39,892 nucleotides of DNA from the IMG/VR virus record IMGVR_UViG_3300034980_000562, positions 1-39,892 of that record. One strand, 5' to 3'. A program made the position numbers and the translations under genes. This document shows, piece after piece, positions 1 through 39,804 of the stretch (within the stretch, counting starts at the first letter, position 1; each line of letters begins with the position of its first letter). The notes below the pieces were generated by a model. It did no database searches. It was not told the DNA's origin and worked only from the letters and a program-made list of their open reading frames with translations. The DNA comes from a virus.

Positions 1-81
1 AGTCTCTTGGGGTCCAACCTCCACAACAATGCCGTGGTGCGCGTGGTCATCCCTTCTTTTAACTAAGTTACCGACTTTCAC
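1..81 (-). CDS. GDLV-family small protein (partial, 3' end missing)
   Basis: Only the first 27 codons are in the window. The frame opens with GTG and reads MKVGNLVKR, then a GIVVEV strand, the same opening as the paralogues at 68-250, 513-734 and 721-915. It was recognised by that similarity, being too short to stand out otherwise. The start lies inside the 3' end of the upstream paralogue: the last 14 bases of that gene are also the first 14 of this one. The fold is probably a small SH3-like beta barrel (inference from the alternating hydrophobic pattern). Function unknown. Confidence 0.7.
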   Translation of the reverse strand, partial: MKVGNLVKRRDDHAHHGIVVEVGPQET

Positions 82-250
82 TAATCACCTCCAAGATCCC
101 CGGATTTGTTCTCTCAACAAGTTCGCCAGATGACCACAATACCACGAAGGCATCTGCAAGCAGCGGATTCCATGGGCTTTCAGCAACGATCACACCTACG
201 GAACCGATAGAATTATCAGCCTCAAACTTTACCAAATCACCAATCTTCAT
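68..250 (-). CDS. GDLV-family small protein (60 aa)
   Basis: A 60-residue protein with the family layout: MKIGDLVKF at the N-terminus, GVIVAE near residue 20, VVLWSSGE near residue 37, and a C-terminal LEVISESR. These short hydrophobic strands separated by turns suggest an SH3-like beta barrel. That is inference from the pattern; no function is known. It has its own promoter (257-285) starting seven bases before the start codon, so its leader is very short or absent. Its last 14 bases overlap the GTG start of the next paralogue. Confidence 0.8.
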   Translation of the reverse strand: MKIGDLVKFEADNSIGSVGVIVAESPWNPLLADAFVVLWSSGELVERTNPGILEVISESR

Positions 251-256
251 ACATAT

Positions 257-285
257 AATATAGCACCCAAACGGGCGATCGTCAA
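257..285 (-). promoter_or_regulatory. Sigma-70-like promoter for the GDLV gene at 250
   Basis: On the minus strand, TTGACG (280-285), a 17-base spacer, then TATATT (257-262). Each box is one base off consensus. The predicted transcription start falls at or just before the ATG at 250. Confidence 0.75.
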
Positions 286-316
286 CCTCTAAGTTGTCAA
301 GTGATTGTTAGGTGCG

Positions 317-523
317 TTAAACTTTTGTCGTCCTTCCGCTTGGGCTAATAACTTTTAGGCTTATGCGTGGCCACCATCCGGCAGGGTTGTTTTCGGATGA
401 CCACAGGATTTTACATTCGATTCCTTTAGTCTCCGTCACCAACCCAGCGCAAGAAATGTCGCGCTCCACATCGTAGAGTGCAACAACAAGATCGCCGATG
501 CTTGGTGCGCCGCTATCCTTCAT
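317..523 (-). CDS. GDLV-family small protein (68 aa)
   Basis: The family core starts about eight residues in: SIGDLVVALYD, then CAGLVTE, CKILWSS and a terminal LKVIS. The ATG at 523 is chosen over the in-frame TTG three bases upstream. The start overlaps the 3' end of the upstream paralogue by 11 bases, so the two are probably translationally coupled. The tail after the last strand is basic. Function unknown. Confidence 0.75.
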   Translation of the reverse strand: MKDSGAPSIGDLVVALYDVERDISCAGLVTETKGIECKILWSSENNPAGWWPRISLKVISPSGRTTKV

Positions 524-734
524 CAATAGGTACCAAGTCTGTGATCGGGAACGCTATCTTGTCGCCGTTAATCAACACAACCGCGTGAGGTTCGGGGTCG
601 ATCTTCTCCCAATCGATCTTATTGCCAAACACATCTGTACGCCAGCACTTCTTTTCTATCAGATCAACAATAAGTCCAGCGCGGAATGATGCTCCGACCG
701 AGGACGAAAGTTTAACTAAGTCACCTACTTTCAT
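513..734 (-). CDS. GDLV-family small protein (73 aa)
   Basis: Opens with MKVGDLVKLSS, followed by a GLIVDL strand, a longer insert with a Trp, then AVVLINGDKI and a closing DLVPI. It starts inside the last 14 bases of the upstream paralogue (stop at 721-723) and itself overlaps the next paralogue by 11 bases, so three family members are nested head to tail. Function unknown; the small beta-barrel fold is an inference. Confidence 0.8.
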   Translation of the reverse strand: MKVGDLVKLSSSVGASFRAGLIVDLIEKKCWRTDVFGNKIDWEKIDPEPHAVVLINGDKIAFPITDLVPIDEG

Positions 735-915
735 TTATCACCACCAGTCTTTGAATGTCAACCCACCAAGTTTCGCCATCGTTAAACAGCACTTGTGCTG
801 ACTCCGTGTTGTGTCCCGTCTTGGACATTTTAACCACCAAACCAAGTTCTTCTCGATAACGATCCATATCATCATTTAGGACATTCATCCACTTTACCAA
901 ATCACCGACTTTCAT
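721..915 (-). CDS. GDLV-family small protein (64 aa)
   Basis: Family layout: MKVGDLVKWMN, LGLVVKM, AQVLFNDGETWW, and a C-terminal LVVINESR. The final Asn-Glu-Ser-Arg-stop is read from the same bases that encode the MKVG start of the next gene. First gene of a short run transcribed from the promoter at 922-950. Function unknown. Confidence 0.8.
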   Translation of the reverse strand: MKVGDLVKWMNVLNDDMDRYREELGLVVKMSKTGHNTESAQVLFNDGETWWVDIQRLVVINESR

Positions 916-921
916 ACCTAT

Positions 922-950
922 AATATAACACCCATTTGCTCTCGCGTCAA
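922..950 (-). promoter_or_regulatory. Sigma-70-like promoter for the GDLV run 915 to 317
   Basis: TTGACG (945-950), 17-base spacer, TATATT (922-927) on the minus strand. Almost the same boxes and spacing to the ATG as the promoter at 257-285, so gene and promoter may have been duplicated together. Confidence 0.75.
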
Positions 951-971
951 GTCAAGAGCCTGTCAAGTAGG

Positions 972-1154
972 TCACACTCTTTCACTTATTGTTTCCAGTG
1001 CAGAAGTTTGTTCGATCACTAACGGATCTTCATCGAAGTTATCAAACCACATAACCTTAGCTTGTCTGCCTCCAATATACATTTCTACAACAATCCCATA
1101 GCCGAGCCAAAAAGACGAGTCATGTTTAATCTTTACCAGATCGCCGGCTTTCAT
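972..1154 (-). CDS. GDLV-family small protein (60 aa)
   Basis: Start placed at the ATG giving MKAGDLVKIKH, which matches the paralogues; a longer frame upstream adds 14 residues with no family similarity. Further strands are GIVVEM and AKVMWFDN, with a closing LETISERV. The first 29 bases lie inside the 3' end of the upstream gene (1126-1380), the longest overlap in this array. Function unknown. Confidence 0.75.
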   Translation of the reverse strand: MKAGDLVKIKHDSSFWLGYGIVVEMYIGGRQAKVMWFDNFDEDPLVIEQTSALETISERV

Positions 1155-1380
1155 CTTGTGGCTCCTTCTGACATACGATAACGGCATCCTGTTCATCGTG
1201 CAGCTTTACCACATAGAAAATTTTACCTTCGTAAATCTCGCACGGGAAAGCGGTTACCGGCATCACTGCGATGGCGGGCCCACCGTTAGATGCCGGTGTA
1301 GTATTTAGCTCCACCGTTGCGAAATGAGTATCGTAAGTATCAACCATCCCCACTAAAATAAATGTAGTTAATATCGTCAT
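1126..1380 (-). CDS. Hypothetical protein (84 aa)
   Basis: Begins with a hydrophobic stretch (about residues 2-12) and contains two beta-rich segments, around FPCEIYEGKIFYVVKL and DAVIVC. The C-terminus is basic because it is read through the start of the next GDLV gene (DESRRSGKD then stop). It overlaps the upstream gene by 4 bases (ATGA). Not clearly a GDLV member, although the second half has a similar strand pattern. Function unknown. Confidence 0.65.
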   Translation of the reverse strand: MTILTTFILVGMVDTYDTHFATVELNTTPASNGGPAIAVMPVTAFPCEIYEGKIFYVVKLHDEQDAVIVCQKEPQDESRRSGKD

Positions 1381-1583
1381 TTATATACCTCCAAATAACT
1401 TATCCATTCTTCTGAAAGTTGGCCATCGTGCCAGCGTATTTCAAACCGGCGCGTGGTAGTGCCCTTCGCCTTCACCTCTCTCAAGATAACTCCCGGCAGA
1501 ACCTTAAACGCATCCGTGTACCTCTCCCACTTAAATGTGGCAGAAGGACTTGGAATATATTTAACCAGAGTTCCTATCTTCAT
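1377..1583 (-). CDS. GDLV-family small protein (68 aa)
   Basis: Opens with MKIGTLVKYIP (Thr replaces the usual Asp), then GVILREV, FEIRWHDGQ and a closing YLEVYK. The ATG at 1583 was chosen because it gives the family N-terminus and makes a 4-base ATGA overlap with the small upstream gene; an upstream in-frame start would read back through that gene. Function unknown. Confidence 0.75.
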   Translation of the reverse strand: MKIGTLVKYIPSPSATFKWERYTDAFKVLPGVILREVKAKGTTTRRFEIRWHDGQLSEEWISYLEVYK

Positions 1584-1723
1584 TTTATAAAACCAAGACA
1601 GCAAGAAAGTATTTCGGAGAGCATCGACTTAATTTCAGATGCCATATAGATAATGTGTTCGGGGTGATTGGCGACCCAACAAGCAATAAAACAAAAAGTA
1701 GCGATATTTAATAGAGCTTTCAT
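1580..1723 (-). CDS. Small hydrophobic protein (47 aa)
   Basis: A 47-codon frame between two adjacent genes: its ATG shares one base with the stop codon upstream (TGATG) and its stop overlaps the next start by 4 bases (ATGA). The predicted protein begins MKALLNIATFCFIACWV, a likely signal sequence or single membrane segment, and ends with a second hydrophobic stretch containing two Cys. The exact fit to its neighbours is the main reason to believe it. Function unknown. Confidence 0.6.
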   Translation of the reverse strand: MKALLNIATFCFIACWVANHPEHIIYMASEIKSMLSEILSCCLGFIK

Positions 1724-1908
1724 CACACATCACCATCAAGCACTTTCTGAATTTTAATCTTCAGATCATTTGCCGTGAGGATAGAGGCATCACTTATATT
1801 GTCTAATACTTTCTGCACTTTCTTTAGTTTCCTTTCGATTCTAATTAGTGGGTTGACCACCGCAATACCAGTTTTTGAATATCCGGGATCTTGATCGTGA
1901 TATGACAT
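1723..1908 (-). CDS. Hypothetical protein (61 aa)
   Basis: Start set at the ATG giving MSYHDQDPGYSK, preceded by an AAAGGA ribosome site. A longer frame would run back into the tRNA-Ile gene and is rejected. The C-terminal two thirds is charged and probably helical (RIERKLKKVQKVLDNI). It lies just downstream of tRNA-Ile and probably shares its transcript. Function unknown. Confidence 0.65.
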   Translation of the reverse strand: MSYHDQDPGYSKTGIAVVNPLIRIERKLKKVQKVLDNISDASILTANDLKIKIQKVLDGDV

Positions 1909-1934
1909 TTTGTTTCCTTTTAATAGATATTCGG

Positions 1935-2007
1935 TACGGGAGGCAGGATTTGAACCTGCGACCAATCGCATATAAGGCGACTGCTCTTACCACTGAGCTA
2001 CACCCGT
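1935..2007 (-). tRNA. tRNA-Ile (anticodon UAU)
   Basis: Cloverleaf folds by eye: D arm GCTC/GAGC, anticodon stem GTCGC/GCGAT around loop CTTATAT, T arm GCAGG-TTCAAAT-CCTGC. The acceptor stem has one T-T mismatch at its sixth pair. CCA is not fully encoded (ACC then G). Anticodon UAU reads AUA, a codon that is rare in GC-rich bacteria. Confidence 0.88.
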
Positions 2008-2012
2008 GAAAG

Positions 2013-2089
2013 TGGCACACTCGGTTGGATTCGAACCAACGGCCCTCGGCTTAGAAGGCCGATGCTCTATCCAACTGAGCTACGAGTGC
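2013..2089 (-). tRNA. tRNA-Arg (anticodon UCU)
   Basis: Acceptor GCACTCG pairs with CGAGTGT, anticodon stem TCGGC/GCCGA encloses CTTCTAA, and the T loop is TTCGAAT. The 3' CCA is encoded. Reads AGA/AGG. It lies five bases upstream of tRNA-Ile, so the two are probably cut from one transcript starting at the promoter at 2103-2131. Confidence 0.93.
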
Positions 2090-2102
2090 ATATTACTCTT
2101 AT

Positions 2103-2131
2103 ATTATAACGCGACTTTGACCTCAAGTCAA
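2103..2131 (-). promoter_or_regulatory. Sigma-70-like promoter for tRNA-Arg and tRNA-Ile
   Basis: TTGACT (2126-2131), 17-base spacer, perfect TATAAT (2103-2108), ending 14 bases before the tRNA-Arg 5' end. The -35 box overlaps the last bases of the gene at 2128-2331. Confidence 0.78.
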
Positions 2132-2331
2132 GCAACATTTGTAAAAGAAATGTCAGATGCAAAATATACAAGATGATTCCCAGGCATGATCATAACTGGT
2201 GTCTGGCCCGGTTGTGCATACTCTTTTTCAAACTCAGCCCATGCATGGTTTTTATCATGACGCCTTGATACAAATGTAAATGCGCCCATATTTCCCGTGG
2301 TTTGTTCTTCATAAATAACTGTGTAGGTCAT
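2128..2331 (-). CDS. Hypothetical protein (67 aa)
   Basis: A small, probably soluble protein beginning MTYTVIYEEQ and containing an aromatic/charged helix (AWAEFEKEYA). It overlaps the upstream gene by 4 bases (ATGA), indicating coupled translation. No recognisable domain; function unknown. Confidence 0.65.
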   Translation of the reverse strand: MTYTVIYEEQTTGNMGAFTFVSRRHDKNHAWAEFEKEYAQPGQTPVMIMPGNHLVYFASDISFTNVA

Positions 2332-2609
2332 TCTTCTTCTCCTTTGTTAATGTTTTTGCCATCTCTGTCGCGGCCCTCAAGTTGCCATTGAAGTTTTTTA
2401 AGCTCCGATAGTCTTAGGCTGGATTTCCACACCTTTGCGGCATATTCGTAGCAATCGTGGCTTGTGCTATAGTTGTGATCCAGTCCATTAGTTTTAACTC
2501 GATTTAAGGTTTCTTGTGCCACTTTTATGAGATTTGTCAGATTACACTCCATGTCCTGCAAAGCAGCCAACTGACTTTGCCATACATCCTCTGCTTTAAT
2601 TGTTCTCAT
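2328..2609 (-). CDS. Hypothetical protein (93 aa)
   Basis: Predicted largely helical (heptad-like Leu pattern around residues 10-40 and 60-80) and ends with a charged tail. It follows the CAU tRNA gene closely and is coupled to the next gene by an ATGA overlap. No domain recognised. Confidence 0.65.
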   Translation of the reverse strand: MRTIKAEDVWQSQLAALQDMECNLTNLIKVAQETLNRVKTNGLDHNYSTSHDCYEYAAKVWKSSLRLSELKKLQWQLEGRDRDGKNINKGEEE

Positions 2610-2625
2610 GTGATCTCTCTTGTAA

Positions 2626-2702
2626 TGGTAGGCTCTCTCGGGCTTGAACCGAGGACCACCCCGTTATGAGCGGGACGCTCTGACCAACTGAGCTAAGAGC
2701 CT
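2626..2702 (-). tRNA. tRNA with CAU anticodon (Met or Ile2)
   Basis: Acceptor AGGCTCT pairs with AGAGCCT, anticodon stem TCCCG/CGGGG encloses CTCATAA, and CCA is encoded. A paired first position (A-U) argues against initiator tRNA. Whether it is elongator Met, or Ile2 whose C34 becomes lysidine to read AUA, cannot be settled by eye. Confidence 0.92.
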
Positions 2703-2708
2703 GTGAAA

Positions 2709-2784
2709 TGGTGGGTGATGTGGGGCACGATCCCACGACCTGCGGATTAAAAGTCCGATGCTCTACCAACTGAGCTAATCACCC
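2709..2784 (-). tRNA. tRNA-Lys (anticodon UUU)
   Basis: Acceptor GGGTGAT pairs with ATCACCC, anticodon loop CTTTTAA, D arm GCTC/GAGC, encoded CCA. The upstream protein gene (2775-2993) ends inside it: that gene's last codons and TAG stop are the first ten bases of this tRNA. Confidence 0.93.
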
Positions 2785-2993
2785 TTCTTTTTGTCTTTCT
2801 TCTTTTTCTTTGTCGGCTGCGCCGGCTCAGAACTGTATGACTTATATTGAAATAAGGCAAATTCATAACCGGTTTCCACCCTCTGATCAACTTTGTTCCT
2901 GAGTCCTTTGAGCAGCAACGGATTAGCCGCGGCCCAGTTCAGTCCAAAATATGCCACGATTGGCGCCATAATTAATTTTACTATTGTTTTCAT
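2775..2993 (-). CDS. Small signal-anchored protein with Lys-rich tail (72 aa)
   Basis: Residues 1-25 (MKTIVKLIMAPIVAYFGLNWAAA) look like a signal peptide or membrane anchor; the last 15 residues are almost all Lys/Asp. The stop codon is inside the 5' end of tRNA-Lys, a 10-base overlap. The gene sits between tRNA-Leu and tRNA-Lys on the same predicted transcript, so processing of tRNA-Lys would cut the mRNA at its stop codon. Function unknown. Confidence 0.65.
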   Translation of the reverse strand: MKTIVKLIMAPIVAYFGLNWAAANPLLLKGLRNKVDQRVETGYEFALFQYKSYSSEPAQPTKKKKKDKKKGD

Positions 2994-3012
2994 ATTTCCC
3001 TCCTACAAGAAA

Positions 3013-3098
3013 TGGTAGCTGATGCGGGAGTCGAACCCGCAAGCCCGACCGGGCGGGAGATTTTAAGTCTCCTGTGTATACCGTTCCACCAATCAGCT
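3013..3098 (-). tRNA. tRNA-Leu (anticodon UAA)
   Basis: Class II tRNA with a long variable arm (CGCCCGGTCGGGC). Anticodon stem GGAGA/TCTCC around CTTAAAA, acceptor AGCTGAT with ATCAGCT, encoded CCA. Reads UUA/UUG. First gene after the promoter at 3107-3135. Confidence 0.93.
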
Positions 3099-3106
3099 AT
3101 ACTATT

Positions 3107-3135
3107 AGTATACCTCGTTGGAGGGTGCCTGTCAA
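3107..3135 (-). promoter_or_regulatory. Sigma-70-like promoter for the tRNA-Leu/Lys/CAU run
   Basis: Perfect TTGACA (3130-3135), 17-base spacer, TATACT (3107-3112). The -10 box ends nine bases from the tRNA-Leu 5' end. Confidence 0.8.
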
Positions 3136-3153
3136 CCGAAAAGTGAAGGGGGG

Positions 3154-3387
3154 TCAGATTATTTTCATCATCTCTGATTCAACAAAAAACCTCTTTATTT
3201 GGTCGAGACATAAAACTGTGTAAAGATAATCATCAAAAAAATATCCATCATACTCACACCCAATAACGACTCCGATATGAAAGTATGGGCCTTCTATATT
3301 TTCTTCAAACCAATAGAATTCTTCCATAAAGGTATAATAACCCTGTACTAAATCGCCATGTTTAAATTTTGGAGGAATTGCCGGCAT
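3154..3387 (-). CDS. GDLV-family protein with aromatic insert (77 aa)
   Basis: The family core is present (FKHGDLVQGYY, then IGVVIGCEYD), but the segment between is rich in Phe/Tyr/Trp/Glu and the C-terminus is diverged. ATG at 3387 is preceded by a 123-base stretch (3388-3510) that holds no obvious gene on this strand. Function unknown. Confidence 0.65.
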   Translation of the reverse strand: MPAIPPKFKHGDLVQGYYTFMEEFYWFEENIEGPYFHIGVVIGCEYDGYFFDDYLYTVLCLDQIKRFFVESEMMKII

Positions 3388-3510
3388 GTCTTATATAGAC
3401 TTGCTGCTTCACTTTCTATGTTCTTGCCGGGTGCCGTGGCTCACAATAACCGCACTACTTTCCGCACCCAATGGAAATGCATGCTTTTTGATGACACAAT
3501 ATGTTAGCGC

Positions 3511-4155
3511 CTATTTTCCCCTACGTGCTTTCTTGAGGTATCTTTCCTCAACAACGAGAGGGGTTGTGCCTCCCACTGGGAGCAATTTGTACCTTTTGGC
3601 CCCTTTTGCGGCGCTACGAATTCCATCCTTAATTTCTAATACGAAGCCGCCGCGATTTTCAAAACCCTGCACAATCTTATTTTGGCTTGACCACACTAGA
3701 TCCCCTTCCAGTTCAACACACTTATAGCTGTCGAAAGAGGCTCGCACCACTAAATAATCACCCACGTTATACTTGGGAGTGGCTCGGTGCTGCTCCAATA
3801 CTTTCTGAGAATATCTATTCGCATGCATCTTGAGAAATTTATTGCGATCAGGTACTTTATTCGATATAATATCCGAGGACATGGCGCGGTAGTATGGCTG
3901 TCTTTGGTGATATTTTGCCAACGCTGTTGCGTCGTCTCTATACTTTTTTTCATATTCTGTTGCCCAGTTGTTGTGAGTCAGTTGGGAACTTTCGTCGGTG
4001 CGCTGCAATACTTCAGAAAGCATTTTGCGTTGCTTGTTTGACAGGGCCTTCTTTTTCAAAATCTGAGCCAAGATAGATTCTAGAAACCCGCGATCCCAGC
4101 CGGCGCAGACCGTACGCGATAAGGCTAGCTCAATATCATTTTGAAATTTATTCAT
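3511..4155 (-). CDS. Protein with helical N-terminus and C-terminal GDLV-like domain (214 aa)
   Basis: Residues 1-110 are charged and helical. From about residue 130 there is a region similar to the GDLV proteins (KYNVGDYLVVRA, then ELEGDLVWSSQ and GGFVLEIKDG). This is the only long member, a fusion of the small barrel to another domain. ATG at 4155 was chosen over an upstream in-frame start because it lies after the promoter at 4179-4207 and begins MNKFQND. Function unknown. Confidence 0.7.
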   Translation of the reverse strand: MNKFQNDIELALSRTVCAGWDRGFLESILAQILKKKALSNKQRKMLSEVLQRTDESSQLTHNNWATEYEKKYRDDATALAKYHQRQPYYRAMSSDIISNKVPDRNKFLKMHANRYSQKVLEQHRATPKYNVGDYLVVRASFDSYKCVELEGDLVWSSQNKIVQGFENRGGFVLEIKDGIRSAAKGAKRYKLLPVGGTTPLVVEERYLKKARRGK

Positions 4156-4178
4156 TTTATTCCCCGTGCTTCTCTTAT

Positions 4179-4207
4179 AATATAGCTCGTAGAACAAAAT
4201 AAGTCAA
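4179..4207 (-). promoter_or_regulatory. Sigma-70-like promoter for the gene at 4155
   Basis: TTGACT (4202-4207), 17-base spacer, TATATT (4179-4184). It fills the 73-base gap between the neighbouring genes. Confidence 0.75.
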
Positions 4208-4228
4208 GTCTTATATGTCAGAGAGGTG

Positions 4229-4534
4229 TCAATAGTCATCGACGTCAGAAGATAGCAGAATCGTATCAATATATCCAGGAGGGCATTTAACTATTTGGCA
4301 CCGCCAGCCGGCCCACTTTGGAATAATCTCGTTTAGAGGGAAATCTGGGCATTGTTCCCGCACAGAAACAGAAGGTACCGGTACCTCTACAAATACCTCT
4401 ATAACAGATCCGCCATCATCAGAGTTTGTTTTCACTTCGTATCTACCATCAAAATAATTTGATATTTCGAGTGTGAGCGAGTTAATCGCCTCTTGTTTGG
4501 AGAGTTTTTCTCCGTTAAAAAATATATTAGCCAC
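4229..4534 (-). CDS. Hypothetical protein (101 aa)
   Basis: Starts with GTG directly after the upstream stop, with GGAG about nine bases before. The protein begins MANIFFNGEKLSKQEA, has a central acidic beta-rich section with repeated Val-Pro, and ends with several Asp. No domain recognised. Confidence 0.65.
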   Translation of the reverse strand: MANIFFNGEKLSKQEAINSLTLEISNYFDGRYEVKTNSDDGGSVIEVFVEVPVPSVSVREQCPDFPLNEIIPKWAGWRCQIVKCPPGYIDTILLSSDVDDY

Positions 4535-4768
4535 TTATTTTGCTCCGCTTAAAGTTATTATGCCATCTTGTGCGGTATTCAGAATAACTAACGCAATTCT
4601 TTTACAATTAAAACAATGTGCTATGAGTGATTGAGGCTCTGCGTGTGATACTTCTATCACAATACCCCGAGAATAAACCGGCGCTATTCCTCGCACAACG
4701 TCTCCCGACGCTTCAAAAATATCGTGATGAGAAACCCACTTTATCAGATCGCCTACTCGATGTGCCAT
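4535..4768 (-). CDS. GDLV-family small protein (77 aa)
   Basis: Start placed at the ATG giving MAHRVGDLIKWVSHHD; the upstream in-frame extension has no family similarity. The core continues with YSRGIVIEVSHAE, and there is a CFNC pair near the middle that could bind metal. The stop abuts the GTG of the next gene. Function unknown. Confidence 0.7.
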   Translation of the reverse strand: MAHRVGDLIKWVSHHDIFEASGDVVRGIAPVYSRGIVIEVSHAEPQSLIAHCFNCKRIALVILNTAQDGIITLSGAK

Positions 4769-18906: not shown

Positions 18907-19206
18907 TTATCCTTTTAATAATTGTTGGTTTTTTATTGTGTTGAGAGAGTTCTCAACAATAGAGGGTGCACCCACGACTACTATCTCAGTACCGGTGTGG
19001 CCCCTGTTAATTGTCAATTTTGTAAATCTGTGAGATTTATCTAAGTTATCGGGGAGGGCCCCCGACTCGTTTAACTTCTTCATGCGCATGTCATCGCGGA
19101 TCATTATTACATGCTCCGGGTTTACAAATACTTCACGAAGAGTATATTCCTGCTGGGTTGTTATCGCATTATTGTAGCACACCTCTGTTAATTTAACGAG
19201 CGGCAT
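18907..19206 (-). CDS. Small conserved-looking phage protein (99 aa)
   Basis: Start at the ATG giving MPLVKLTEVCYNN. The middle reads LREVFVNPEHVIMIRDD, a strand-turn-strand with NPxHV reminiscent of FlbD-like small proteins; later segments (TKLTINRG, TEIVVVG) look like further strands. Family memory suggests similar proteins in marine T4-like phages, but that cannot be checked here. The start overlaps the upstream gene by 14 bases. Function unknown. Confidence 0.7.
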   Translation of the reverse strand: MPLVKLTEVCYNNAITTQQEYTLREVFVNPEHVIMIRDDMRMKKLNESGALPDNLDKSHRFTKLTINRGHTGTEIVVVGAPSIVENSLNTIKNQQLLKG

Positions 19207-19411
19207 AGTGTTCTCCCATCGGGTATACGTATTTTTTCTCAACGGTATTTTCTCTTCCTTGTGCGTAAACCCGATAAGTGTTTGAGGCCGTTTCTCGCAA
19301 GAACACCCCAGTGATAGGCTTTTGCGTCCTAATAATGTTCATTGACCCGTTCTCCGTGTGATTCCATAAGCTAACATCTTGTGGAATATGTACTAAGTCT
19401 CCTTCAATCAT
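19193..19411 (-). CDS. GDLV-like small protein downstream of groEL (72 aa)
   Basis: Begins MIEGDLVHIPQDVSLW, then PITGVFLRETA and NTYRVYAQG, so it keeps the GDLV start and the second and third strands of the small barrel family seen at the left end. It begins one base after the groEL stop and its last 14 bases overlap the next gene's start, the same overlap length as two GDLV gene pairs there. Function unknown. Confidence 0.7.
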   Translation of the reverse strand: MIEGDLVHIPQDVSLWNHTENGSMNIIRTQKPITGVFLRETASNTYRVYAQGRENTVEKKYVYPMGEHYAAR

Positions 19412-20998
19412 CTATCTATCCTCCGTTTGTATGATACCATAGTTAGTGGTTATAAGGGTGCCGGCACAAGACGCTGCGTTCTGCAGGGCGGTACGTGTGA
19501 CCTTTGCTGGATCTATTATACCCTTTTCCACGAGGTTTGTCAAGCGACCTTCTTTAAAATCCCAGCCGTGATTTTCCCCAGAGGCTATTACTTCTTTGAT
19601 TATTAAATCTGCCGACTCATCAGAGTTTAGCGCCATTTGTGTTATGGGGGCATAGCAGGCTTGTTTAACTATCAGGGCGCCCTTCACCTGCTCAGTCGAC
19701 TCGTCGTCATCGGTCATAAATGCTATCGTTTGCGAAGCGCGGAGAAGAGCAGCGCCACCGCCAGGCACAACACCTTCTTCTTGTGCTGCGTTAACTGCTT
19801 CAAGGGCGTCTTCTATCCTGTGTTTCTTTTCGGTCATCTCAACATCTGTGGCGCCGCCGACGCGGATGACGGCTACCCCCGAGGACAACCTCGTGATCCT
19901 ATTTTGTATCACTGTACACTGTGCGAAGTCTTCGGTGTTTTGAATTTCGGCCTTAAGGGATTCGATTCTCGTAGTAACCCCTTCGACATCCGCAGCGCCT
20001 CCAACAAATATGGTGGAGGCGTTACTACTTTCTACAAATTTAGAAGTACCCAGATCCGCCATCTTTATATCTTGAAGCTTGCTGCCCGCGGAGCGAGAAA
20101 TAAAGTTGGCGCCAACAGAAGAAGCCAGATCGCTCAGCGCATCTCGGCGTTCCTTTCCGTAGCCCGGGCCTTTTATGGCTGCGACCTTTAAGGTTCCGCG
20201 GATGGCATTCATTATAATAGCCGCCAACGCTTGGCCTTCAATATTCTCTGCAACTATTATCAATGGCCGGCCTTCGCGAGCTACCATTTCTAGTGTTCCT
20301 AGGATTTGATCTACTGTGCTTATGGCATGGTCGGTAACCAAAATCAAAGGCTCCGTATGGTACATTACCGATCGGCGCTCATCGGTAACAAATGATGGCG
20401 AACAATATCCGGAATTAAAACTAAAACCCTCAGTAATATCAAGAGAGGTCTCCATCGAATTGGATTCTTCTATGGTTATAGATCCGTCTTGGCCAACTCG
20501 ATCAAAAGCCATGGAAATCAGGCGACCAACTGATTTATCGTTATTCGCAGAGATAGTGGCGATATGCTCAATATCTTCAATACTGCTTATTGGAATTGAC
20601 ATCTCTCTAAGGTTCTGGCATATTATTTTTACTGTTTTTTCAATCCCTCGTTGTAATTCTACGGGAGATATACCGGCAGCTAAATATTTCTGAGACTCTA
20701 CAAGGATGGCCCGGGCCAATACAGTGGATGTGGTTGTGCCATCGCCGGCATTGTTGTTTGTCTCAATAGCGGCCTGCTTGATGATTTGTGCCGCGGCGTT
20801 CTCAAAGGGGTCTTCCAGAGACACAAAGTGGGCAACTGTAACACCGTCTTTGGTGATAAACGGAGTTTTACCCTTTTCTTTTAACAGGACATTCCTGCCG
20901 CGGGGGCCAAGTGTGGAAGCCACATTATCTGCTAGCTTGTTGACACCATTCATTATCTTTTGTTGTAGCGACTGGTTATCGTCGTATGCGCGGTCCAT
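19412..20998 (-). CDS. groEL: GroEL/Hsp60 chaperonin, phage-encoded (528 aa)
   Basis: ATP-driven folding chamber subunit. Family motifs run in order: STLGPRGRNVLL (29-39), DGVTV (51-55), AGDGTTTSTVLA (84-95), an apical domain with VAENIEGQAL and VAAIKGPGYGKERRDAL, and RIEDALEAVNAAQEEGVVPGGG, in which Asp397 corresponds to the E. coli ATPase residue Asp398. Length 528 against ~548: the Gly-Gly-Met tail is missing. It is driven by a perfect sigma-70 promoter (21022-21050) and heads an operon running to 16252. A GroES-like gene is at 37342-37608. Large phages EL, OBP and AR9 also carry GroEL homologues. Confidence 0.97.
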   Translation of the reverse strand: MDRAYDDNQSLQQKIMNGVNKLADNVASTLGPRGRNVLLKEKGKTPFITKDGVTVAHFVSLEDPFENAAAQIIKQAAIETNNNAGDGTTTSTVLARAILVESQKYLAAGISPVELQRGIEKTVKIICQNLREMSIPISSIEDIEHIATISANNDKSVGRLISMAFDRVGQDGSITIEESNSMETSLDITEGFSFNSGYCSPSFVTDERRSVMYHTEPLILVTDHAISTVDQILGTLEMVAREGRPLIIVAENIEGQALAAIIMNAIRGTLKVAAIKGPGYGKERRDALSDLASSVGANFISRSAGSKLQDIKMADLGTSKFVESSNASTIFVGGAADVEGVTTRIESLKAEIQNTEDFAQCTVIQNRITRLSSGVAVIRVGGATDVEMTEKKHRIEDALEAVNAAQEEGVVPGGGAALLRASQTIAFMTDDDESTEQVKGALIVKQACYAPITQMALNSDESADLIIKEVIASGENHGWDFKEGRLTNLVEKGIIDPAKVTRTALQNAASCAGTLITTNYGIIQTEDR

Positions 20999-22767: not shown

Positions 22768-23418
22768 CTAAATTATAATGTCGGCAATGCCATGTTCAAC
22801 GGCCTCTTCTGCAGTTAAATAGACGTTAACTTTGCGTTCTAGCAGATCTTTTAGATCTTTTTTGGACATATTTGTTTCTCGTATAAGCGCTCGGCTGTAC
22901 ATCTTTTGAATTTGCTCAACGGCTTCCATCTCATTAATAAGATTATGGAGCGGACCATGATTTCCTCCGATGACCGAGTGAATCATAACTCTACAATTCT
23001 TCCCTATTCTTCTTTTTCCCTTCGTGCCAGAGGCTAGCAAAAGAACGCCGGCTGACATCACCTTGCCTAGTCCAAAGGTGTGTATTTCTGTTGACTCTTG
23101 TATGAACCTCATTGCATCATACATACCAAACATGTCATCGGCAGAACCACCATACGTAGAAATATAAAATTCTATGGGGTCTTTTTTAGAATTAATCACG
23201 TTTGATTCACTTAAGTAAAGCATCGCGTGTATAAGTTCGGCCACCTTTTCTTCTGAAACGTCGGAAAAAAGCCCTACCACTCTCAAGTCCGGTTCTTTGG
23301 GGGGTATAAGGCCTTCTATGGATATTATTCTATCGATTTCTGATTGAAGGACGCCTTCAACTTCCGGAGTAATTGGGGTGGTCTCTCCAATAATGGCATC
23401 CATAATTTTCTTAATCAT
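22768..23418 (-). CDS. ClpP-like protease with altered triad (216 aa)
   Basis: ClpP/crotonase fold: IEFYISTYGGSADD (83-95), GLGKVMSAGVLLLASG with nucleophile Ser122, CRVMIHSVIGG with His147, and the closing YLTAEEAVEHGIAD. The third catalytic position, Asp two residues before the aromatic in true ClpP, is Asn198 here (KVNVYLTA). The protein may be weakly active, or a non-catalytic partner of the second ClpP homologue at 28758-29363. It overlaps the upstream membrane protein gene by 8 bases. Confidence 0.88.
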   Translation of the reverse strand: MIKKIMDAIIGETTPITPEVEGVLQSEIDRIISIEGLIPPKEPDLRVVGLFSDVSEEKVAELIHAMLYLSESNVINSKKDPIEFYISTYGGSADDMFGMYDAMRFIQESTEIHTFGLGKVMSAGVLLLASGTKGKRRIGKNCRVMIHSVIGGNHGPLHNLINEMEAVEQIQKMYSRALIRETNMSKKDLKDLLERKVNVYLTAEEAVEHGIADIII

Positions 23419-29366: not shown

Positions 29367-32300
29367 TTATCCTAATAATTTAAATGTTTTGCCAATAGCG
29401 TATGTTGAGAACCCCCAGTTCTCATCGTATTTAAGACGAGCCATATAGGGACGGTTAAGGTGAATAACATCTTTTTGTGGTTTAACTCCCCAACACCTTA
29501 TCCTAGTTAGTTCATTATTGGAGTCAATGACCTCAACGATCCAATAAAGTTTTCCATTTTTTGTCTTTTTGGCCACAACTTTGCGAGGAATGAACCAACA
29601 AACCTGCAGATCTTCATCGAACTCTGAAATAGGGGGAATAAGCCGCTCTTGCAGCTTTTCTACTGTTGTGGGTGTTATGACTAAATTCATTGGAAATATT
29701 CCAATCAAGTCTGTCTTAAACTGTATAATCTCCTCTTCTGAAAAATCTCCTTCGGGGGCATACAACTCAATATTATCAGAAAATTTCTTAAGATTTTTTG
29801 GTCGATCGACGATTGTTGCAGACCAAAAATGTTTTCGACCAGTGAAGCGGTCATCAACAATGTTGTCCAAGGCCCCGCCGCGGCAGAGCGCATCTAGGGA
29901 CTTCTTATTGAGTTTGCTATAAGAAATATCTTCTCTAAACAACAGGTCTTCTGCGTTCATGAATGGACGATTTTCTAAGACCTGCTCGATGGCAGCGACA
30001 CCGAGGCCCTTGATCGAGGAAAGAGGCTGGATTAGAGTCTTTGCATCCTTGCTGATTTCCCACACAACACCAGATTTATTTATGTCAAGCTCTGCGATAT
30101 TGAATCCGTACTGCTTTGCGATATTAATCGCCTTCTCCTTGCGAGTCTCAGGCTCCTTGTCTAAGAATGCTGCCATCCACTCGGCGGGGTAATAGTTCCA
30201 CAGCCACGCACACTGGAATGAGATAATACTATACGATACTGCATGAGACTTATTGAATCCATACCCTGAGAAAAATTCAAACTTATCCCACAGGGTCTGG
30301 GCTTTATCTCTGGCGATCTTATTTTTAAGGCAACCGGAGATAAACTTATCGTGAAGTTTGCCCTTGATTGAGCCTTTGCCGGTGCCCTTTTTGGTTAACA
30401 CTTTGCGAAGCACATTACCTTCATCAAGAGTTAGACCACCAAGCTTATGAGCTAGCAGGGCGATCTGTTCTTGAAAGATCAAGAAACCAAAGGTCTCTTG
30501 TGTGATCTCATGAGAGTCGCCATTCAGATATTCAATGTGGTGTGGGTTTTCCTTGGCATCTATATACTCATCGTGGACGTTTGCAGACAAAGGGCCCGGG
30601 CGATAGATGGAGGTGATAGCAGAAACATCAATAATGTTGCGCGGCTTAGCGCGTACACAAAACTTCTGGGCGCCCTGTTCAGTAAACTGGAATATTCCAG
30701 CCCATTTGCCTGTGTGAAATATATTCTCGTATATTTCTTGATTGTCCATATCGATCACATCCGGGTGTAGATGCTCATTATAATAATTTTGTACCTGTAC
30801 GAAGGTCGGACTTTCAACTCCATGGTGGCGACGAAGGATGTGTTCAATGGCGCCCTCCATCATTTTCAAAGTCGAAAGACCAAGTAAATCAAATTTAATA
30901 AAACCCATCGGTTCAAGGTGACGGACATTCTGTCCTTCGGCCCATGGTGCTTGGCGCACGCCTCCGGAATTGATCAGGGGCATGTTTTTGTCTAGGTTCT
31001 CAGCTATAACAACTCCGCCGGCGTGCCGGGAGCAAGAACGCACCTGGCCCACAAGGCCCTCAACGTGAGTCTTGACTTCTGGGTATTTATTCAGATATGC
31101 TCTCAGTGTGGGTGAAAACTCCATGACCTCTTCCCATGATGGTGCATATACTCCCGCCTTGATGCCGTGCTTTCGCTTCACTTCGGGGGTAGCTTCACGG
31201 ATCATGATAGAAGTAACAGTGTTTACCTCTGTAAATTCGATGTTGTATAATTTTGAAATGTCCTTGATTAAACTTTTGAGCTGCAGCGTATTCCAGTTGG
31301 AGATTGGAGCAACGCAATCGGCGCCCCACATCTCAACGAGCTTCTCTTTTAGAGCCATACTGTCAGATACATCATAGTCGATATCAGGATAGTCAGTCGC
31401 ATCCGAGCGCAAGAATCGAGAGAACAGCAAACCATGCTTAATCGGGTCAACTTGTGTAATGTTTAATGCGTACGCAACAAGCGAACCTGCTGCAGAGCCG
31501 CGGCCCGGGCCAGTGAGCATCATATCGGTGGCGACATCAACAATGGACTTCATCGTTAAGAAGTATTTAGAGAAGCCTCGATCATCGATGACATTAAGCT
31601 CGAGCTTCAATCGATCGGTATATTCTTTTTTGATATGAAGGCCCTTATCTTTAAGTCCCTCAAGAGCAAAATTAACAAGCGCCTGTGTTGCTGTGAATCC
31701 GGCTGGTACCACAAACTCCGGCAAGCGTACTGTGTTGTCGGGCAGAAACGACTCAATTCGATCGAACGCGATGGTATGTGTCTCTTCGATGCTCTGCATG
31801 ACTAAGTCATCGTCGTATTCAAATCCCTGTTCGTCGGAGTATTGCTTATAACTCTCCCACATTTGATCGCCGTTCTTTGGGTACAACTCGTAACCAATTT
31901 CCTCGACGCCGGCAGGGAGTTGTGATTCCTCATCGGCCCACGATGGGCGCCCTTTGCCGAGCCAGCCTAAGCGCTTATAAAGTTCTCTGTCCTTCCAGGC
32001 GTCAGGATTGGGATAGTGACTGTCGGCAGTCGTTACCAGCTTGACGTCAAATTCTTTCGCGACCTGAATGACATACTGATTCAGCTCGTGCTGCTCTTTA
32101 ATGTTGTTCCATTGAATCTCGGCATACCAGCGATCTCCGAAGATATCAACCATTTGTCGTGTAGACTCTCTCATCGCCTCTAGGACGGCTTCGGCGCCTT
32201 CGTCCCGATGTTCCCAGTAGTTACCAGCGTAAACGCCGCCTAGGCACGCTGACGAGGCTATGATACCCTCATTATATTTCTTCAGAAGCGCGTAATCAAT

Positions 32301-32795
32301 GCGCGGATATCGATAGAAATTTTCTGCTTTGTATGACTCGGATACAAGCTTGAACAGATTGTTTAACCCTGTCTGATTTTGAACCAGTAGAACAAGGTGT
32401 CGCCGGCGTTTGAGTATTCCTTGGATCTTCTTGCTATCGCCCTCGTCTTCAACGGTGGCGCCCGACTGTTCATCCTTTTTAATCGAGCGCGCCTTCTTCT
32501 TGTCTTCCATCGCCTGATTATACGCGTCGTGCCACTCGGCGATGGACGGCGTAAAGTAGGCCTCGCAACCAAAGATCGGTTTAAACTCTCTCCCCTCCTC
32601 TTGCATCTTCTTAGCGTGTAGCACCTGATATGCCAACCCATTCATATTACCATGATCGGTGAGGGCTAGTGCTTCGCCACCGTTCTCATATGCAAAGTCC
32701 ATGTGTGCCTGGGGATACCCAATGGCATCAAAAATTGAACCTGCCACACTATGTGCGTGCAGTCCAACAAATTTAATCTTAGATTGTTTTCTCAT
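29367..32795 (-). CDS. dnaE: DNA polymerase III alpha subunit, family C (1142 aa)
   Basis: Replicative polymerase. N-terminal PHP domain: GLHAHSVAGSIFD and ALTDHGNMNG. Polymerase palm: TGPGRGSAAGSLVAYAL, then YPDIDYDVSD with catalytic Asp471 and Asp473 and CRHAGGVV. Fingers and beta-binding regions follow (GPLSANVHDEYI, GFLIFQEQIALLA, GYGFNKSHAVSYS), then a C-terminal OB fold. Length is near E. coli DnaE (1160). Most large phages carry family A or B polymerases, so a family C enzyme is notable. ATG at 32795 chosen over an upstream start; the promoter at 32830-32858 precedes it. Confidence 0.96.
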   Translation of the reverse strand: MRKQSKIKFVGLHAHSVAGSIFDAIGYPQAHMDFAYENGGEALALTDHGNMNGLAYQVLHAKKMQEEGREFKPIFGCEAYFTPSIAEWHDAYNQAMEDKKKARSIKKDEQSGATVEDEGDSKKIQGILKRRRHLVLLVQNQTGLNNLFKLVSESYKAENFYRYPRIDYALLKKYNEGIIASSACLGGVYAGNYWEHRDEGAEAVLEAMRESTRQMVDIFGDRWYAEIQWNNIKEQHELNQYVIQVAKEFDVKLVTTADSHYPNPDAWKDRELYKRLGWLGKGRPSWADEESQLPAGVEEIGYELYPKNGDQMWESYKQYSDEQGFEYDDDLVMQSIEETHTIAFDRIESFLPDNTVRLPEFVVPAGFTATQALVNFALEGLKDKGLHIKKEYTDRLKLELNVIDDRGFSKYFLTMKSIVDVATDMMLTGPGRGSAAGSLVAYALNITQVDPIKHGLLFSRFLRSDATDYPDIDYDVSDSMALKEKLVEMWGADCVAPISNWNTLQLKSLIKDISKLYNIEFTEVNTVTSIMIREATPEVKRKHGIKAGVYAPSWEEVMEFSPTLRAYLNKYPEVKTHVEGLVGQVRSCSRHAGGVVIAENLDKNMPLINSGGVRQAPWAEGQNVRHLEPMGFIKFDLLGLSTLKMMEGAIEHILRRHHGVESPTFVQVQNYYNEHLHPDVIDMDNQEIYENIFHTGKWAGIFQFTEQGAQKFCVRAKPRNIIDVSAITSIYRPGPLSANVHDEYIDAKENPHHIEYLNGDSHEITQETFGFLIFQEQIALLAHKLGGLTLDEGNVLRKVLTKKGTGKGSIKGKLHDKFISGCLKNKIARDKAQTLWDKFEFFSGYGFNKSHAVSYSIISFQCAWLWNYYPAEWMAAFLDKEPETRKEKAINIAKQYGFNIAELDINKSGVVWEISKDAKTLIQPLSSIKGLGVAAIEQVLENRPFMNAEDLLFREDISYSKLNKKSLDALCRGGALDNIVDDRFTGRKHFWSATIVDRPKNLKKFSDNIELYAPEGDFSEEEIIQFKTDLIGIFPMNLVITPTTVEKLQERLIPPISEFDEDLQVCWFIPRKVVAKKTKNGKLYWIVEVIDSNNELTRIRCWGVKPQKDVIHLNRPYMARLKYDENWGFSTYAIGKTFKLLG

Positions 32796-32829
32796 TACTT
32801 GCCTCCATAAAGAATTTTCTAACATGTAT

Positions 32830-37836: not shown

Positions 37837-39804
37837 CTAAATGGTGCATGTATCATTTGTACAAAATTTTGTACCAGTTCCGCCGGGATCCTCAGAGAGT
37901 TTGTTTAGTGGCTTTACTTTGGCTATCATCTTCTCATATTCTTTCTTGGTAATTGCTTCATATGGTGCTTGTTTATATCCTGTTTCTGTGAGTTTCAAAA
38001 AAGATACAGCTTTGAGGCGCGACTCATACATTTCTAAAGCATCCTTAATCTGATAGGATTCTTCATCTTTGAAGGTGATCGTGACTGATACTGAGTTATC
38101 CGCCCAATAGTACTGATATTGAGCCGCGATTTCCAGCTGTTCCCACATGCTAACGCTTTTTTTGCCCTTTGTGAAGTAAGGTTCTTTAACTGCAAATTCA
38201 ACAACCATGGTGTTTGGCGTATATTCATCTGCCTCAATCTTATAACCGGCTTCTTCCAGGGGTCCTAATAGTCCAGAGTCAGATCCAAATCTGATTCTTC
38301 TAATATAATATTCATCCTCTGGGAAATGAATTCCCGGCGTCGAGCCGTTCAGGAGCGATACTGTGCCAGATGGTTTAATTGACGTCATACGAACCGATTT
38401 GGGAATGCAGAGCCAGTTAGAATATTCTTTATCTAGCTGTGTTACATATTCATATGCTTGATCGCACCAGTTGTACATCTGTCGACGACCATGTTTATTA
38501 AATGCCTGCACCACACCCGATTGGGACAACCCAATCCGGCGGTTCTTGAGCATCTTTGCATTGGTCTCAGGCCAGTGTGTGTTTGAGAGGGTAATCGTTT
38601 TCCCATATAGGTAAGCAATTTTGAGCGTTTTCAAATAATCTTCAAGATCTTCATGCTTCGCAGGGAAAGTTTCAACAAGACAGCACAATTCGGCGTCTTC
38701 GAGTTGTTGTTCGACGCACGGGTTAAAGCCGGCGACATTTATATCATCAAAGCGCTCGCCATCTCTAAAGCGGCCGCGGGTTCGCGCATTGTTTAGCCAG
38801 ATATATCCGGGTTCGCCGTTCTTTTGTGATTGGTTGGCGTGCCATGTATAATCCATCCCAACAACAGCATTAAAAGAATTGTTGGACCCCCAGCGGTGAT
38901 GATAAAGTTTTTCTTGATCATTCTTCATTTCAAGATATTGGATATCGTCATGAGAACCCATCGCAAGGGCCGCTGAGCGTCGGACATTTCCGGACACCAC
39001 ACAACGGCCGATTAAATTCTCCGTGTCTACAATATCAACCGATGTAATGGACTCGCCTATCTTGGCTGTGTAAAGTTCTGTCAGGCTTTCGTGCAATTCG
39101 ATCAGGGGGTCCGGACCGCTTGAGGTACCTCCAAATCCTTTAATTTCTGCGCCATAAGGTCTAATCGCAGAATAATCAAATTTGGGTACCTTCGAACCGT
39201 GGAAAAATCCGTCCAATAATGTATGAACCGAGTCTACCCAGCCTTCGCGAGAATCATCAATCACAAGCGTGTCGTTTGTGTATTCTGGCTCTCGGATAGA
39301 CAAAGTGTCTGAGCCTTCAGTGTCGAAGCCCACACCAATACCCACCATTAGAGCGTCCATCATCCAAGCGAATAAATAACCACCCTTTGTAGATAAATCG
39401 CGAGTAGAGCGAAAAGCACAATTAAACAGCCCTGCCGCAGTACGTTCTTCAATAAATTTTGTGCCCATCATCCACAGGCCGCGGCCAGGTGGCGTCCATT
39501 TTAGATTAAACAATCGATCATATGCGTCTTTGGCTGTTTTCTGAGCCTTGCTATCGTTCCATTCAAGACCCAGGGCAAATACATGCTGTTTTTGCATGTT
39601 AAACATGCTCTCTACCACTCGCCGGCATGTCTGCCACCACTCTTCGGAACCCGAAGCAGCCGGATCAAACTCGCTCAATCTTCGAGCATATGTTCTTTTA
39701 AAGGTGATATATCCTAGGGGGCCCCAAGGTACTTCCGAGTCCACATATGGCTCGATGAAGGAATCCGAAAGGCGGAATCTGCGTATATTTTCTACTGTTC
39801 TCAT
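37837..39804 (-). CDS. nrdJ: Class II (adenosylcobalamin-dependent) ribonucleotide reductase (655 aa)
   Basis: Makes dNTPs from ribonucleotides. It matches the monomeric B12-type family: GLFNCAF with Cys129, NRRS-like ENLIGRCVVSGNVRRSAAL, active-site loop FNPCVEQQLEDAELCCL (Cys363 thiyl site, Glu365, Cys374), SIKPSGTVSLLNGSTPGIH, and a C-terminal C-x4-C (Cys648, Cys653) for thioredoxin reduction. No ATP cone. Somewhat shorter than the Lactobacillus enzyme (739). The B12 dependence means the host must supply or import cobalamin. First gene of the run down to 35855. Confidence 0.93.
   Translation of the reverse strand: MRTVENIRRFRLSDSFIEPYVDSEVPWGPLGYITFKRTYARRLSEFDPAASGSEEWWQTCRRVVESMFNMQKQHVFALGLEWNDSKAQKTAKDAYDRLFNLKWTPPGRGLWMMGTKFIEERTAAGLFNCAFRSTRDLSTKGGYLFAWMMDALMVGIGVGFDTEGSDTLSIREPEYTNDTLVIDDSREGWVDSVHTLLDGFFHGSKVPKFDYSAIRPYGAEIKGFGGTSSGPDPLIELHESLTELYTAKIGESITSVDIVDTENLIGRCVVSGNVRRSAALAMGSHDDIQYLEMKNDQEKLYHHRWGSNNSFNAVVGMDYTWHANQSQKNGEPGYIWLNNARTRGRFRDGERFDDINVAGFNPCVEQQLEDAELCCLVETFPAKHEDLEDYLKTLKIAYLYGKTITLSNTHWPETNAKMLKNRRIGLSQSGVVQAFNKHGRRQMYNWCDQAYEYVTQLDKEYSNWLCIPKSVRMTSIKPSGTVSLLNGSTPGIHFPEDEYYIRRIRFGSDSGLLGPLEEAGYKIEADEYTPNTMVVEFAVKEPYFTKGKKSVSMWEQLEIAAQYQYYWADNSVSVTITFKDEESYQIKDALEMYESRLKAVSFLKLTETGYKQAPYEAITKKEYEKMIAKVKPLNKLSEDPGGTGTKFCTNDTCTI

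Follow-up and report, generated by a model that had tools for sequence, protein, structure and literature searches.

What are the many tiny genes crowded at the left end of IMG/VR virus record IMGVR_UViG_3300034980_000562, and how does one phage come to carry so many of them? The window, that is the whole stretch of DNA analysed, is a 39.9-kb virus fragment (positions 1 to 39,892) with mostly minus-strand coding, and an earlier note on it had described about 11 short genes with a K-x-G-D-L-V start as a fast-diverging phage family of minimal SH3-like barrels, perhaps a system of its own. Both the phage context and the view that the array is a separate system were supported here, and we consider it probable that the array is an operon of small binding proteins whose genes can be exchanged and are shuffled at a dual-coding joint, at which the end of one gene and the start of the next are read from the same DNA. 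The left end of the window would then be the end of a tandem array of SH3-like barrel genes (hereafter GDLV genes, g0 to g9 in the window; Table 1) in a large marine T4-like phage.

The joint between g1 and g0 was read on the minus strand from 93 to 62 as TGGAGGTGATTAGTGAAAGTCGGTAACTTAGT, giving L-E-V-I-S-E-S-R and a stop codon in the frame of g1 and, in the other frame, the GTG start and K-V-G-N-L-V of g0, with GGAGGTGAT as a Shine-Dalgarno sequence at the usual spacing from that GTG. The joint is an element of approximately 32 bp. One frame encodes the tail of the upstream protein together with its last beta strand, and another supplies the Shine-Dalgarno sequence, the start codon (GTG or ATG) and M-K-V-G-D-L-V for the downstream protein; in the structural model of g4, L-V-V-I at the equivalent site forms the last strand of the barrel. 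Information content was concentrated at -12 to +20 around the start, and the overlap with the preceding family open reading frame (ORF) was exactly 14 nucleotides (nt) in 510/908 members and 4 nt in 69/908. The tail [SN]E[SGN]R was found in 328/428 members with a 14-nt downstream overlap, in 0/52 with a 4-nt overlap and in 37/296 without overlap, while codon 4 was GGT in 100% of 14-nt-overlap genes compared to 80% of genes without overlap, the upstream stop codon TGA demanding that codon. As the tail follows the overlap and codon 4 is constrained, the two motifs, at the start and at the end, are a single DNA element that is read in two frames; the L-x-x-I-S-E end in the earlier note was thus correctly seen, but it is the overlap with the start of the next gene and not a separate motif.

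The joint was also found on genes outside the family. GTP cyclohydrolase II (390-983 of the locus that we call L219; Pfam E 1.9e-61) and two GIY-YIG proteins (L073:10059-10361 and L102:2170-2424; 6e-17 and 4e-17) carry the 14-nt joint at their 3' ends, where the proteins terminate in IISESR or IVNESR. As unrelated proteins share it, the unit of exchange is the joint and not the protein family; the GIY-YIG genes might themselves take part in the mobility of the array. A natural variant of the joint was seen in the window in X, a non-family gene upstream of g5, which runs through the joint because the GGT codon is GGC here, extending 29 nt into g5 and gaining a short tail. In the related locus L100, X terminates at DESR, 14 nt into g4.

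A search for related loci with a single member gave nothing, the members being too diverse, and a DNA pattern for the joint was therefore used as the query, with which at least 120 IMG/VR stretches were collected. Comparison of these loci showed that cassettes are shuffled with exact re-formation of the 14-nt overlap. Between the same pairs of loci, neighbours were kept in 97/140 cases for family genes versus 147/175 for other genes. In L044 and L094 the common cassettes have approximately 96% protein identity, yet their order is scrambled, and the blocks of DNA homology start and stop at joints in both. Broken adjacencies were 14-nt joints in 160/171 cases; counting distinct adjacencies that were ever broken, these made up 93/135 of the 14-nt joints versus 7/19 of the others (p=0.009). 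One cassette present in 15 loci had 12 successors and 9 predecessors, each via an exact 14-nt overlap. The window can be compared with L100, where g1 and g0 are separated by one whole extra gene that is flanked on both sides by the 24-base TGGAGGTGATTAGTGAAAGTCGGT; the g0 of L100 is 100% identical to that of the window (the neighbours of g0 being 84% identical), and L100 joins X straight to g4 where the window has g5 between them.

Orthologous cassettes are under purifying selection, with a median ratio of nonsynonymous to synonymous substitution (dN/dS) of 0.23 over 348 pairs with the termini excluded. Diversifying selection on orthologues was rejected on the same value, and the earlier description of the family as fast-diverging did not hold; turnover is through shuffling, gain and loss instead.

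The family was found to be real past its first eight residues. Of 827 unique high-confidence members, 736 non-redundant ones from contigs other than the window went into the profiles; E-values for window genes were calculated at Z=1000, and cores, from which the first and last 8 residues had been removed, were compared with 500 shuffles. Window cores beat their shuffles (Table 1) and, in cross-validation, 62-72% of held-out cores without termini scored above the 99th percentile of shuffled cores, so that relatedness does not end after the first eight residues and the members form one paralogous family, as the earlier note had it. The ORFs it listed were all present on the minus strand with the starts it gave. 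Of its approximately 11 members, seven are firm (starts at 81, 250, 523, 734, 915, 1154 and 1583) and two probable (3387 and 4768), a count that covers the window part only as the array extends past the contig end; two were unsupported, namely the C-terminal domain of 3511-4155 (profile E 1.1; core score reached by 86/500 shuffles) and the gene at 19193-19411 (profile E 8.2; 168/500 shuffles). The K-x-G-D-L-V start, G-[ILV]-V strand, V-x-W and 14-nt joint were all found in the window, with 14-nt joints at g0, g1, g3 and g4; g5 and g6 qualify by protein alone, g2 has a variant start, and g7 and g9 are weak.

Individual genes could be followed into other loci. The truncated g0 matches the complete member L100:13618-13800 at 93/93 bases. 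The overlap of g2 with the end of g3 is 11 nt from its ATG or 14 nt from a TTG at 526, and g2 has orthologues in L008, L010, L012, L019 and L100. The core of g3 is weaker, its score being reached by 10/500 shuffles; its orthologues are at most 92% identical, with dN/dS of 0.12-0.26. On protein similarity g7 and g9 are probable distant members: orthologues of g9 occur in L010, L012 and L100, and GDLV proteins similar to g7 in L079 and L005.

Table 1. Coordinates of array genes, joints and associated features in the window.
Feature	Position	Strand	Description
g0	1..81	-	GDLV gene truncated by contig end; GTG start at 81; VKVGNLVKRRDDHAHHGIVVEVGPQET...
joint g1/g0	62..93	-	TGGAGGTGATTAGTGAAAGTCGGTAACTTAGT; g1 end LEVISESR and stop; Shine-Dalgarno GGAGGTGAT; GTG start and KVGNLV of g0
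g1	68..250	-	GDLV SH3-like gene, C-terminal end LEVISESR; profile E 1.3e-11; core above 500/500 shuffles
putative sigma-70-like promoter	257..285	-	TTGACG-17-TATATT; ends 6 nt before g1 start codon; same sequence type in L100
g2	317..523	-	GDLV gene, variant start (MKDSGAPSIGDLV); profile E 1.4e-5; core above 500/500 shuffles
g3	513..734	-	GDLV gene; profile E 3.5e-7
joint g4/g3	715..746	-	14-nt overlap, ATG start
g4	721..915	-	GDLV gene; profile E 1.5e-10; core above 500/500 shuffles; structure predicted
putative sigma-70-like promoter	922..950	-	TTGACG-17-TATATT; ends 6 nt before g4 start codon; similar sites in L100, L008, L019
g5	972..1154	-	GDLV gene; profile E 1.6e-10; core above 500/500 shuffles
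X	1126..1380	-	non-family gene upstream of g5; end QDESRRSGKD runs through joint
g6	1377..1583	-	GDLV gene; profile E 8.6e-6; core above 499/500 shuffles; structure predicted
five tRNA genes (Ile, Arg, Met, Lys, Leu)	1933..3098	-	between g6 and g7
g7	3154..3387	-	distant-member candidate; profile E 0.059
g9	4535..4768	-	distant-member candidate; profile E 0.0015

The GDLV proteins are predicted to be minimal SH3-like barrels, in agreement with the earlier suggestion, as both window members modelled by AlphaFold2 from the family alignment adopted this fold. The g4 model (mean predicted local distance difference test score, pLDDT, 88.9) has strands at 6-9, 24-33, 37-44, 49-53 and 57-61, and the g6 model (pLDDT 82.2) at 6-9, 31-38, 45-51, 56-60 and 64-66; the two proteins are only approximately 25% identical, their strand order is alike, and both models have the five strands and short helical turn before the last strand of a small SH3-like beta-barrel. 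The solved folds nearest to the g4 model (VIA) were PsaE, PetP, the KOW domain of Spt5, NdhS and eS4, with a best Z of 9.0 (59 residues, root mean square deviation 2.0), and the best Z for g6 was 8.2 (VIA). Weak sequence matches of the profile to the PDB were likewise mostly SH3-like barrels (Spt5, NusG, MIB1, L24, L26 and Rv2302). No consistent family was found among the members in PHROGs, or in a Pfam scan of 141 of them, in which the KOW family (PF00467) matched 2/141 (best E 4.1e-5) and was not a family-wide match. Many structural matches in BFVD fell in one run of UniProt accessions (the A0A516L/M series) and may come from these same arrays in a small number of uncultured phages that have been deposited.

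These results bear on the suspicion that the array is an ordinary cluster of small phage ORFs that are not related to each other, have GDLV starts by chance and overlap at start and stop as is common. Small overlapping ORFs are frequent in phages, and 4-nt overlaps dominate in cyanophage S-PM2, but termini-free cores that beat their shuffles, exact 14-nt overlaps in 510/908 members and a predicted fold common to two members of approximately 25% identity refute that reading, to which we give almost no credence.

The preferred reading, of exchangeable cassettes shuffled at the joint, would work as follows. Each gene begins and ends with near-identical DNA, and recombination between joints could therefore move whole genes, inserting, deleting, duplicating or reordering them with the ribosome-binding site, start and stop always restored. 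Homologous recombination or template switching would drive this, with the joint as the homology. The stop-start overlap would couple translation of neighbours, through which a new cassette would be expressed from an existing promoter. The individual conservation of each cassette argues that each protein probably has its own job, most likely that of binding host proteins or nucleic acids early in infection, variable targets included, in host takeover or counter-defence, which would make the array a quickly re-assorted repertoire. More tentatively still, we suggest that this is combinatorial gene assortment by a phage, in which one joint would be coding sequence and at the same time serve for recombination, ribosome binding and stop-start coupling, maintaining a re-assortable repertoire of small binding proteins against hosts as counter-defence or takeover tools. 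On the preferred reading, genes could be gained, lost and reordered by a phage with their expression always intact, the site of exchange being the coding joint itself. The joint is also a DNA signature with which hundreds of uncharacterised small proteins are located in marine T4-like phages, turning 'hypothetical protein' clutter into a defined and testable repertoire.

Several observations weigh against this account. A scan of 141 members with PADLOC gave three single marginal matches (best E 0.01) and nothing convincing. Net charge was widely spread (5-95% range -8 to +6, median net 0, 38% of members with an isoelectric point (pI) above 8), which gives no hint of one common ligand and argues against there being one. 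The joint is not uniform either: within one array its median identity is 81%, and the longest identical stretch has a median length of 13 bases; such stretches are short for classical homologous recombination, and template switching or rare events would be needed. Array and joint counts are enriched as the loci were picked by the joint pattern, and neither contig pairs nor adjacencies are independent of one another. When fragments were sampled by terminase instead, just 4/11 of those above 80 kb had two clear members or more, although the region may lie off the fragment; the four include the sole near-full-length fragment of that sample (192.6 kb, 9 members).

Two further explanations accept the family and the joint. 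Members could be nucleic-acid-binding, KOW-like regulators of transcription, translation or the nucleoid, similar to T4 MotB or the KOW domains of NusG and Spt5, with array size setting dosage and not target range. In favour of this are weak similarities in sequence to KOW, Spt5, NusG and ribosomal proteins, fold neighbours including the Spt5 KOW domain, eS4 and L21e, and the DNA binding of T4 MotB, which has a predicted N-terminal KOW domain (PMC7827196). However, the domains of PetP, PsaE, NdhS and nitrile hydratase are just as good matches, and because of this the fold gives no pointer to nucleic acids; with charge as widely spread as described and a minority of members basic, we regard this explanation as unlikely. 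The array could instead be mainly a product of recombination, the short, self-compatible joint easing tandem duplication and exchange of cassettes that are mostly neutral passengers or selfish in effect. This would suit the unrelated cargo picked up by the joint, the copy number of 10 to 31, and the loss in culture, with a gain in fitness, of the S-PM2 ORFanage of small unknown genes (PMC4503421). It is less probable again, as cassette interiors are under purifying selection (the median dN/dS of 0.23) and single cassettes persist in up to 15 loci.

The known process nearest to shuffling at the joint is that mediated by PeSL (promoter and stem-loop) elements of T4-type phages (Arbiol 2010; Comeau 2014), compared here by its description in PMC4503421. 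Going by that description, both are short repeats in variable regions of T4-like genomes that exchange small genes and bear an expression signal, but a PeSL is a promoter and stem-loop whereas the joint lies inside coding sequence and holds a ribosome site, start, stop and parts of both proteins. No promoter followed by a stem-loop was found between genes, the joints being in overlapping coding sequence with no intergenic space, and the two array promoters of the window are separate from the joints. Integron cassettes are also small genes swapped as units at a repeated boundary, but the boundary here is coding, and GAT at 76% breaks the AAGTC-GGT-GACTT arms, leaving a consensus without a palindrome; codon counts of the joint consensus held no conserved inverted repeat of the attC type, and a conserved hairpin at the joint was rejected likewise. 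The S-PM2 ORFanage resembles the array as a set of small overlapping unknown genes near tRNAs, with poor synteny, in a T4-like marine phage (PMC4503421), but it has no GDLV member (best profile E 0.42) and most of its overlaps measure 4 or 8 nt rather than 14. Several of its 8-nt overlaps (L220, 5000-17500) link N-D or D-D ends to M-T-E or M-T-D starts, and may represent another type of joint comparable to this one. As proteins, the members share a five-strand SH3-like barrel with PetP, PsaE and NdhS, the KOW domains of Spt5 and NusG, Rv2302 and tudor/PWWP domains (Z up to 9.0 over 59 residues), but differ from these in having no consistent Pfam family and in being tandem, exchangeable phage genes. 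T4 MotB is an early protein with a predicted KOW (SH3-like) domain, from a nonessential region (PMC7827196); it differs in being a single gene, with an extra OB-fold domain and no array.

Arrays of 10-31 members were found in each of 22 other IMG/VR records. The T4 major capsid Gp23 gene was present in 17/19 records tested (contigs of 102-267 kb) and, while the window has no capsid gene, synteny ties it to L012, whose record has one. This points to large T4-like phages as the carriers of the arrays; that they are marine is a looser surmise, made because such IMG/VR sets are mostly aquatic, as are the nearest named relatives. The nearest named terminases, 44% identical, belong to Microcystis phage Mel-JY01 and Flavobacterium phage immuto, and a profile search found no member in these two phages, in Rhodothermus phage RM378 or in Synechococcus phage S-SSM7. 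Against 50,697 named phages, tblastn with one member and the consensus gave no match and blastn of the joint gave chance-level matches only. Among 84,980 genomes of bacteria and archaea the strict joint gave a single match, on an 11-kb contig of a Flavobacteriales metagenome-assembled genome which is probably a phage contig. No earlier description of such arrays was found in the literature (open-licence papers searched).

The array also bears putative expression signals and tRNA genes. The two sigma-70-like promoters (Table 1), called by consensus matching only, have -10 boxes that stop 6 nt short of the g4 and g1 start codons, and early transcripts from them may therefore be leaderless; a promoter before every non-overlapped cassette was looked for and seen only in the close relatives of the window. 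Genes for tRNAs were present in 25/51 array loci scanned. Elsewhere in the window we observed GroEL (19412-20998), a ClpP-like or head maturation protease (22768-23418), a phage-encoded DnaE-type polymerase III alpha (29367-32825) and a class II-type ribonucleotide reductase (37837-39804) with 46.7% identity to that of Mycobacterium phage Gaia.

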